A stretch of 64,000 nucleotides of DNA, from positions 2,062,478 through 2,126,477 of the forward strand of contig NZ_LT984895.1 of NCBI RefSeq assembly GCF_900258505.1. Reading direction: 5' to 3'. The DNA comes from Brachybacterium timonense. Its GTDB lineage: Bacteria > Actinomycetota > Actinomycetes > Actinomycetales > Dermabacteraceae. Numbering within the stretch: position 1 is the first letter of the stretch; each line of letters opens with the position of its first letter. Made by a program: the position numbers and the translations under genes. The notes beneath the pieces are model-generated. The model did not search any database. It saw only the letters and a list, made by a program, of their open reading frames with translations, and had not been told where the DNA came from. This document shows, piece after piece, positions 59,089 through 64,000 of the stretch.

Positions 59089-60309
59089 ATGACCGTCAAG
59101 CGCGTCGCTCTGCTCACCGCCGGTGGCTACGCCCCCTGCCTCTCCTCCGCTGTTGGCGGCCTCATCGAGCGGTACAACGAGCTCGTGCCCGAGGTCGAGA
59201 TCATCGCGTACAAGCACGGCTACTGGGGTCTGCTGCGCGGCGAGAAGATCGTGGTGGACGACGAGGTGCGCGCGAACGCCGGTGTGCTGCACAACTACGG
59301 CGGCTCCCCCATCGGCAACTCCCGGGTGAAGCTCACCAACACGAAGAACCTGGTCGAGCGCGGCCTGATCCAGGAGGGCCAGAACGCACTGGAGGTCGCC
59401 GCTGATCAGCTCAAGGCCGACGGCGTCGACGTTCTGCACACCATCGGCGGTGACGACACCAACACCACCGCCGCGGACCTCGCGGCATTCCTGCACGAGA
59501 ACGACTACGAGCTGCACGTGGTGGGCCTGCCCAAGACGATCGACAACGACATCGTGCCGATCCGCCAGTCGCTCGGCGCCATGAGCGCGGCCGAGCAGAC
59601 CAGCATCTTCGCGCAGAACATCATCGCCGAGAACGGCTCGAATCCGCGGATGCTCATCATCCACGAGATCATGGGCCGCGCCTGCGGGTACCTGACCGCA
59701 CAGGCCGCCGAGTACTACCAGCAGTGGCACGCCCAGCAGACCTGGCTGCCGTCCATCGGCCACACCGCCGATCGCTGGGACGTGCACGCCGTGTTCCTGC
59801 CGGAGATGGCGCTGGACATCGAGGCGGAGGCCGCACGCCTGAAGACCGTCATGGACGAGACCGGCTGCGTGAACATCTTCCTGTCCGAGGGTGCCGGTAT
59901 CCCGGAGATCATCGCGGAGATGGAGTCGCGCGGAGAGTCCCCCGAGAAGGATCCCTTCGGCCACGTCAAGCTGGACACGATCAACCCCGGCCAGTGGTTC
60001 GCGAAGCAGTTCGCGGAAAAGCTCGGCGCGGAGAAGGTCATGGTGCAGAAGTCCGGGTACTTCTCCCGCTCCGCGAAGGCGAACGCCGAAGACCTGCGCC
60101 TGATCAAGTCGATGACGGACCTCGCTGTGCAGGTGGCGCTCGAGGGCGGCACCGGCGTGATCGGCCACGACGAGGAGCAGGGCGATCGCCTGCGTGCGAT
60201 CGAGTTCGAGCGCATCGCCGGCCACAAGGCCTTCGATATCTCCCAGCCGTGGTTCCAGAAGGTGATGGAGCGCGTGGGGCAGACGGTCACCCCGGCCGCT
60301 GATCACTGA
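59089..60309 (+). CDS. PPi-dependent 6-phosphofructokinase
   Basis: Reversible phosphorylation of fructose-6-phosphate using pyrophosphate. 406 residues from ATG 59089 (AAGGGA eight bases upstream). HTIGGDDTNTTAADL carries the GGDD that marks the PPi form (ATP enzymes have GGDG), and GLPKTIDNDIVPIRQSLGAMSAAEQ has the catalytic TIDND. IIHEIMGRACGYLTAQ binds the sugar phosphate. Actinobacterial PPi-PFK is of this size. It stands alone, with no other glycolysis gene beside it. Confidence 0.94.
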   Translation: MTVKRVALLTAGGYAPCLSSAVGGLIERYNELVPEVEIIAYKHGYWGLLRGEKIVVDDEVRANAGVLHNYGGSPIGNSRVKLTNTKNLVERGLIQEGQNALEVAADQLKADGVDVLHTIGGDDTNTTAADLAAFLHENDYELHVVGLPKTIDNDIVPIRQSLGAMSAAEQTSIFAQNIIAENGSNPRMLIIHEIMGRACGYLTAQAAEYYQQWHAQQTWLPSIGHTADRWDVHAVFLPEMALDIEAEAARLKTVMDETGCVNIFLSEGAGIPEIIAEMESRGESPEKDPFGHVKLDTINPGQWFAKQFAEKLGAEKVMVQKSGYFSRSAKANAEDLRLIKSMTDLAVQVALEGGTGVIGHDEEQGDRLRAIEFERIAGHKAFDISQPWFQKVMERVGQTVTPAADH

Positions 60310-61887: not shown

Positions 61888-62126
61888 GAAGTGATTCTCT
61901 CACGCTGTGTCGGCGCGGGCCACGCACTGGCCCCCTGGCCTGGTGCACTCGCCATGACACCTGTGGAGGGCGTGGGAGCACTGCCAACCGCGCTCCGCCG
62001 CTCGGGACACGCCAGCTTCCCGCCTGGCCGACGGTTATCCACATCTTCGGCGGTCCCGTGGCATGGGCTGGGCGGGGCTGTCTACCGTTCTGGTGTCCCC
62101 GAGCCCGGATGAGTCGAGGTCCCCGC

Positions 62127-62930
62127 ATGCAGCGCCGCACCGTTCACATCACGCCCCATCACGCCAAGCACAGCGATCACGCTGCTCTCTCACCCGAGGC
62201 GATGCTGGCTGGCCCTGCGGGTGCACTGTCTGGCGCCGCGCCCGCCGCCTCCGCTGGCCTACTGGCCGGTGCCGCGCCTGCCCACTCAGGGAGGCAGCGC
62301 CGTGGCGCACGCGTGTTCGCCGCATCCGCCGCACTCATGCTTGCCCTGTCTGCCTGTGGTGGCGATGAGCCGCCCGACAACGGCCTCGACGGCACCATGC
62401 CCGACCTCAGCACCAGCAGCGACAACGGCGGCGCCAGCGACAACGGCGGGGCAGACAACACCGCAGCAAGCGACGCAGGTGGCGACAGTGGCGGGGAAGA
62501 CCTTGCCGCCAGCATCCCCGCGCCCGATCCCGCTGACTATCCCGGCATGGACCAGAACACCCCCGAAGGCGCCGAACAAGCCTTCAAGTACTACATCGCG
62601 GTCCTCATCTGGGCGCACCAGACCGGGGATACGCAAACCTTGTCGGAACTCAGCACAGATAACTGTTCGAAATGCGCTTCACTGATAGACGAGGTGAAAG
62701 CGATCTCATCCGAATCATCCTATTGGTCCACGAAGGGTTTCGATGAAACCGGAACGGCCATACACGAAAGCAACACCTTCGACCACGAGGTCGGATACAT
62801 CTACACTCTGACCTACGAAAGCCAAGGTGCCTCTCGGAAGGTCGAGACGAACACTATCGGGGGGATGGTATGGCTCGCCGACTCATGGAAGGTCGATGAG
62901 ATGATCTCCGAGTCGAAGGACGTCACATGA
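62127..62930 (+). CDS. Lipoprotein, DUF6318-like, with long N-terminal extension
   Basis: 267 residues from ATG 62127, which has GAGGT six bases upstream. A lipobox, LALSAC (Cys77), follows a basic RQRRGAR segment, but about 55 residues of Ala/Gly/Pro/Ser and His come before it, which is unusual for a lipoprotein signal. The mature part has a Ser/Gly/Asn/Asp linker, then a compact domain: APDPADYPGMDQNTPEGAEQ, FKYYIAVLIWAHQTGDTQ, DNCSKCASLIDEV and VWLADSWKVDEM, matching DUF6318-type lipoproteins from memory. DNA becomes more AT-rich towards the end. It is coupled to the next gene (ATGA). Confidence 0.78.
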   Translation: MQRRTVHITPHHAKHSDHAALSPEAMLAGPAGALSGAAPAASAGLLAGAAPAHSGRQRRGARVFAASAALMLALSACGGDEPPDNGLDGTMPDLSTSSDNGGASDNGGADNTAASDAGGDSGGEDLAASIPAPDPADYPGMDQNTPEGAEQAFKYYIAVLIWAHQTGDTQTLSELSTDNCSKCASLIDEVKAISSESSYWSTKGFDETGTAIHESNTFDHEVGYIYTLTYESQGASRKVETNTIGGMVWLADSWKVDEMISESKDVT

Positions 62931-63903
62931 ATAGAATGCCTGCCACACCAAGCTTCCTCCTAACATCGGTCACCATATTCCTCCTTGCATTCTCTCTATC
63001 CGCTTCACACTTTCCCGCTGCTCACGCAGGCGGGTCTGGAAAGGACGGATTTACTACAACGCTCGAGGAGAACCGAGAACGCATTGAAGAAGGGGGAAAC
63101 TCGGGGCGTCCCGGATCAGGAAGACAGCGCGGATCGACCAGATCAGCTCCGACGGTGCGGACGATCTGGCAGCGGCCCGAGGGCGGGGTCCGTTACGAGT
63201 GCGGGGCACCGGGCGCCGATCAGTGGTCGTGCACGGTCCCGAAGAACTCGTGCGAAGCCGCGTATGTCCCGCCTCTGCATGGGCAGGGTGAGGACGGTCT
63301 GCTGATCAACCAACCACGACAGCGCGGTACAGCTGACCCGAACAAGATCACCCAACGCGGCACCCGGATCACGCTCGCAGACGGCACCAGAACAGACCTC
63401 GGCCACCGCTGCATCACCCTCGGCAGCCCCGGTACCGCAGCCATCCCGGGGGCGCCACCGGTGGTCATCACCGTCACCCGCGAAGACTTCGCCACCCTCC
63501 CCGTCCAGCCGCTGGAGGCCACTGCCGGGCCACCCGATGGGTGGCTACCGGTGAACATGGTCAACGTCCTCCACACCAACCCGGCCGAGCAAACCCTCGC
63601 AACGACACTGCTGGGTACCCCGGTGCAGATCAGGGCGATCCCCATCGAATACCACTGGGACCTCGGAGACGGGAACACCATCACCACCACCAAACCCGGC
63701 AAACCCTTCCCCTCCGAAGAGGTCACCTCCACCTACCGGTACGAAGGCTGGTACGACATCACGCTCACCACCACGTTCGCGGGACAGTTCTCCGTTGACG
63801 GCGGGCCCTGGCAAGACATCGACGGCACCATCACCATCACCAGCGACCCCGTCCCCCTCTACTCCGCAAGCCTCACCAGCCGCCTGACCAACCCCCACAA
63901 ACC
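62927..63903 (+). CDS. Secreted PKD-domain protein, 3' end missing (contig end)
   Basis: About 325 genuine residues. Signal peptide at 1-34 (SFLLTSVTIFLLAFSL, cleavage near AHA-GG). Then a Gly/Arg/Ser-rich stretch, a Cys-containing segment (RYECGAPGADQWSCTVPKNSCEA), and a PKD-like domain (IPIEYHWDLGDGNTITTTKPG, TYRYEGWYDITLTT). The frame stays open to 63994, but everything after 63903 is sequencing adapter, so the apparent C-terminus (CPLYTSDAADA and what follows) is not part of the protein. The true end lies outside the assembly. Secreted or surface protein, partner unknown. Confidence 0.85.
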
Positions 63904-64000
63904 CTGCCCCTTATACACATCCGACGCGGCCGACGCACCACCCCGGGGAGACCTCCGGGGCCGCCGTATCACTAAAAAAAAAAAGAGAAGCTAGAGATGA
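63904..64000. other. Illumina Nextera adapter read-through at contig end
   Basis: 63904-63922 matches the transposase mosaic end CTGTCTCTTATACACATCT at 16 of 19 bases. 63923-63936 continues as the Read-1 adapter (12 of 14). 63937-63944 sits where the eight-base i5 index belongs. 63945-63973 matches the P5 complement at 22 of 29, with almost all changes T to C or G. 63974-63984 is eleven A, as after adapter read-through. This is library sequence, not genome. Confidence 0.97.

Follow-up and report, generated by a model that had tools for sequence, protein, structure and literature searches.

Reads that run past the end of a library fragment continue into adapter sequence, then into a run of A, and then into seemingly random sequence (PMC3906532). 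In the parts available, this paper prints both Nextera read-through strings, and PMC10528933 gives the layout of P5 and index. In assembled genomes, Moeller et al. 2024 (PMC11536531) describe contamination that is concentrated at the ends of contigs, with adapter there and its reverse complement at contig beginnings. That contamination is found in both isolate and metagenome-assembled genomes and is tied to broken contigs.

The window (the whole stretch of DNA analyzed, 64,000 nt) represents positions 2,062,478–2,126,477 of a 3,085,439-base record, one of four records in the genome of Brachybacterium timonense. Its last 97 bases (positions 63904–64000, + strand) track the Nextera i5-side read-through, ungapped but with errors. 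With a probability of about 0.98, these bases are an erroneous Nextera read-through that was likely left untrimmed on a contig and joined onward by a single N.

Adapter match at the 3' end of the window

The canonical string used for comparison consists of the mosaic end, the complement of the Read-1 adapter, an 8-base slot and the complement of P5. Placed at position 63904 (+ strand), it is identical to the window at 50 of 62 informative bases without a gap. In a scan of every position of the window, on either strand, the runner-up has 35/62 (mean 15.7, sd 3.6). Ten A residues that follow the P5 complement likewise agree with the canonical read-through. The initial annotation had listed, one after another, mosaic end, Read-1 adapter, index slot, P5 complement and poly-A, and the alignment confirms the observation: the adapter parts, through to the poly-A, have the canonical order and spacing in the tail. 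The features are as follows.

62927..63903, + strand: genuine part of the last gene, 3' end lost (ORF; paralogues; Pfam PKD scores)
63904..63922, + strand: Nextera mosaic end (16/19 bases)
63923..63936, + strand: Read-1 adapter complement (12/14 bases)
63937..63944, + strand: i5 index slot of 8 bases, ACCACCCC (adapter alignment)
63945..63973, + strand: P5 complement (22/29 bases)
63974..63984, + strand: poly-A run past the fragment end (sequence; pattern as in the available part of PMC3906532)
63985..64000, + strand: random-looking bases, then N (sequence)

A single N comes directly after the window, and the tail thus reads outwards at a contig end. Of the 12 mismatches to the adapter, six are T>C, four T>G, one A>C and one G>C. 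This deviation, 19% of the informative bases in the tail, counts against an artefact, but may be due to errors at the end of a read. The i7-side adapter was also tried as the source of the tail and rejected, with a score of 15 vs 48 for the i5 side.

The interrupted gene and its paralogues

The last ORF (62927–63994, 355 codons) overlaps the preceding gene by 4 bases and continues in frame through the tail. Its first 326 codons precede the junction, and the tail adds 29 residues that begin CPLYTSDAADA. Two paralogues in the same genome, L024 with an intact end and L025, a 3' part at the first base of the scaffold, agree with the window through 63904. After the junction they run on for 32 and 38 ordinary residues, respectively. 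The junction is at 63903/63904 and is ambiguous by one base because the first C of the adapter coincides with the base of the gene at this position. That the last gene is truncated and its end artificial, as was proposed from the sequence of the window, is borne out by the divergence of both paralogues at the junction and by their ordinary ends. The predicted protein should be trimmed to 326 residues and flagged as incomplete.

A natural, conserved gene end that resembles the adapter by chance would also leave the reading frame open over 29 codons, as is found here. By inspection, however, the canonical adapter itself is open throughout in this same frame, while its other two frames hit TGA or TAG; as one of three adapter frames is open, an in-frame fusion is unremarkable. 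The paralogues terminate differently. The gene is matched in 35 of 38 genomes of the genus, source genome counted, and 25 homologous loci of relatives were scored in two sets of 6 and 19, with at least two pairs representing the same gene from two collections. No adapter scar is found in these 25 loci, where the highest score is 23.4 vs 51.6 in the window. The top two values, 23.4 (L082), a chance alignment, and 21.7 (L030), both fall inside coding sequence and are below the lowest score of a scar, 32.9. A natural end is rejected on the paralogues and homologous loci and is the least credible of the explanations considered, and the absence of the same tail from the homologous gene in these relatives leaves adapter read-through as the preferred reading. 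The initial annotation regarded the translated tail as a known mark of such contamination. No published statement of this was found: the one literature search, for LYTSDAADE, gave no match, although the peptide is encoded by the canonical adapter in the same frame.

The interrupted gene has matches to Pfam families PKD_4 (22.8 bits, cut-off 27) and PKD (22.3 bits, cut-off 23.5), both of which are below threshold. Its neighbour encodes a DUF6318 protein (53.2 bits, cut-off 23.8). In the source genome DUF6318 has three strong matches, along with two more copies that are weak and distant. The PKD-like gene is present in four stretches of the genome, of which only L024 is whole; each of the other three is cut off by a gap or by the scaffold edge. 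Units that combine DUF6318 and PKD-like genes are located as follows.

62058..63903 of the window
G000:C1:1434853-1438782 in the source genome (L024)
G000:C1:123369-125251 in the source genome (L026)
L083-L085 in a relative (G023), which has the same design in three copies

The outer flanks of the window unit are 89–94% identical by BLAST to those of the other two units in the genome, which are 94–98% identical to each other. A core at approximately 62,660–63,140 is very different, with identities of 25–67% per 60-base bin, about the level of unrelated flanking DNA in such alignments. Its G+C content of 47–62% is lower than that of the flanks. The core takes in the 3' half of the DUF6318 gene together with the 5' part of its PKD-like neighbour, and the two genes overlap. 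Genomes G007 and G022 have single pairs that are more diverged along their whole length. Tentatively, and with somewhat less than even confidence, the core may represent a hypervariable low-GC cassette, in which case Brachybacterium would diversify a surface pair by swapping cores between homogenised flanks, and the similarity of the flanks would have broken the assembly. A literature search for DUF6318 found nothing. This multicopy two-gene unit is the sole biology of interest at the end of the window.

Scars at other gaps and the scaffold join

When the tail and the two canonical adapters were used as queries, adapter-like scars came up at eight places in the genome. Ten gaps were examined, eight found through these scars and two encountered when 20 stretches of 20 kb were sampled systematically, and 200 bases were scored from each of the 20 gap flanks. 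Eight of the ten gaps are scarred, a share that is biased by the finding of gaps through scars. There are nine scars in total, with scores of 32.9–51.6; the gap at 1,373.6 kb has scars on both flanks, and the scar at 847.7 kb is the only one of the nine that represents the i7-side adapter. The 11 unscarred flanks score no higher than 12.9 with the better adapter. Over all 40 comparisons the wrong orientation never exceeds 13.5, and none of 4,000 random 200-base segments drawn from the window exceeds 20.6. All nine scars are oriented towards their own N, and their errors differ from scar to scar. Of the 26 matches listed by one adapter search, eight were taken on to inspection of their loci; the other 18 had E values no better than 0.145. 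Weak matches at L010/L020 (one place), L011, L019, L021 and L022, and a 28-base adapter match at 66.66 kb (E 9.2e-4), have no N within their loci and were taken as chance.

The mosaic end derives from Tn5 ends. The tail could thus be a real chromosomal insertion with later mutations, either the end of a Tn5-type transposon or an integrated construct, and an inexact copy of the adapter is what such an insertion would leave. Over these 19 bases the window has 3 differences from the mosaic end and 5 from the natural Tn5 outside end. However, the match extends past the mosaic end via synthetic adapter, index slot and P5 complement into poly-A. An inverted second end is absent; the opposite flank of the gap scores only 8.5 and 8.6. 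The nine copies in the genome are dissimilar, and each faces an assembly gap. A search of the genome for the mosaic end with 2 mismatches allowed found two places, both distant from the window and both at scars. An insertion is therefore very improbable, if slightly less so than a natural gene end. The suggestion in the initial annotation of adapter read-through at a contig end agrees with the base-level match, with the similar scars at other gaps, and with paralogues and homologous loci that are without a scar.

Across the eight i5-side scars the error rate is 40% at T (mostly to C), 28% at A, 18% at G and 11% at C, values that are inflated by the ungapped rows and by the poor alignment of the scar to the right of the 1,373.6 kb gap. 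The eight i5 slots concur roughly, and ACTACCCT and ACTACTCT are the 8-mers that fit them best. Of 18 i5 indices compared, S502–S506 of which are in PMC10528933, S504 fits best but inexactly. It ranks 26th of all 65,536 8-mers, and its first base is seen in none of the eight slots; the lack of an exact known index counts against the artefact. The i7 slot has 7 of 8 bases as in N706. The library is identified here as Nextera, and the index pair is left unnamed.

The initial annotation also stated that the assembly stops at the end of the window. The contig does end at 64000, but the scaffold resumes after one N and continues for almost one megabase, to base 3,085,439. Seven of the ten gaps consist of 1 N and three of 11 N. 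In the two unscarred gaps the flanks overlap exactly over 137 bases (L039 at 9951, L042 at 6875), and the first 137 bases of the scaffold (G000:C1:1-137) recur exactly at the end of the sequence that leads up to the gap at 125.3 kb. The scaffold thus looks like assembly-graph contigs laid end to end. The 137-base overlaps of contig ends also mean that short stretches of the scaffold are duplicated across gaps. At the 847.7 kb gap (L012, approximately 1300–1440 and 1630–1780) the flanks overlap with many miscalls and a local score of 41. No flank overlap is found at the gap of the window (score 10).

To the right of the N at the end of the window are a tRNA-Met and a 1,035-codon ORF, presumably UPF0182. 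The window itself has a gene at 59095–60306 that is taken to be phosphofructokinase. In all of the 30 relatives where a single contig carries this gene and the 1,035-codon ORF, the two face each other, at a spacing of 1.25–21.0 kb, compared with 4.2 kb here; in 5 further relatives they are on separate contigs. The order of contigs across the N is likely correct because the facing pair recurs in all 30 relatives. The tail may nevertheless be adapter on contigs that were wrongly joined at this N, which is compatible with adapter read-through. The 249 bases to the right of the N do not resemble the paralogues at their 3' ends, so that the end of the gene is missing there, and a different gap, at 125.3 kb, has a loose 3' end of a gene copy on its right side. 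Against the recurrent gene pair, a wrong join is unlikely, though it is a less remote prospect than an insertion.

Adapter read-through, the preferred reading, likely arose as follows. A short tagmented fragment would have been read beyond its end, with the read passing from bacterial DNA through mosaic end, Read-1 complement, i5 index and P5 complement, and then into poly-A and random calls. The assembler would have retained the tail where the contig breaks, within a gene that has similar copies elsewhere. Scaffolding would then have strung the contigs together, separated by 1 or 11 N.

Other assemblies and published contamination

Matches to the i5-side adapter at E <= 0.001 are present in 3 of 38 genomes of the genus, source genome counted. 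Genome G018 has four scars, all at contig ends (L053, L055, L057, L060). Two of its index slots are exactly S503. Genome G014 has seven (L054, L056, L058, L059, L061-L063), of which six lie within contigs and the seventh at the start of one. The fetched loci of the internal scars have no N, and scars therefore need not adjoin visible gaps, a point against the artefact reading. The flank at L056 in this genome resembles the flank at the contig start L058, a shared flank that hints at a misassembly.

Public viral contigs also retain Nextera adapters at their ends. The exact Nextera pattern is present 98 times in 95 stretches (L090-L184), and 97 of the 98 patterns are within 120 bases of the stretch end and point outwards. 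Similarly, 97 of the 98 index slots match one of the 18 i5 indices; 53 of the 98 are S504. These scars have the same string as the window and the same outward orientation at ends, but they are exact copies with readable slots, whereas the slot of the window is blurred.

The tail of the window is an ordinary data artefact of a kind that is already published, and its importance is for quality control only. The source genome is listed as 99.98% complete, yet its one 3.09-megabase record is a chain of contigs in which gene ends beside an N should be distrusted. Scars that are about one-fifth wrong and lie inside a scaffold would probably escape near-exact adapter screens at the ends of records.

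As in the sections of PMC11536531 available, adapter contamination is here found at contig ends. That study concerns exact matches to the Illumina universal adapter, and its main text contains neither the word Nextera nor the word scaffold, whereas the window has an error-worn Nextera adapter that adjoins an N within a scaffold. The closest description of the tail is the read-through in PMC3906532, which, in the part available, has the identical adapter strings followed by an A run and random sequence, but in reads and not in an assembly.
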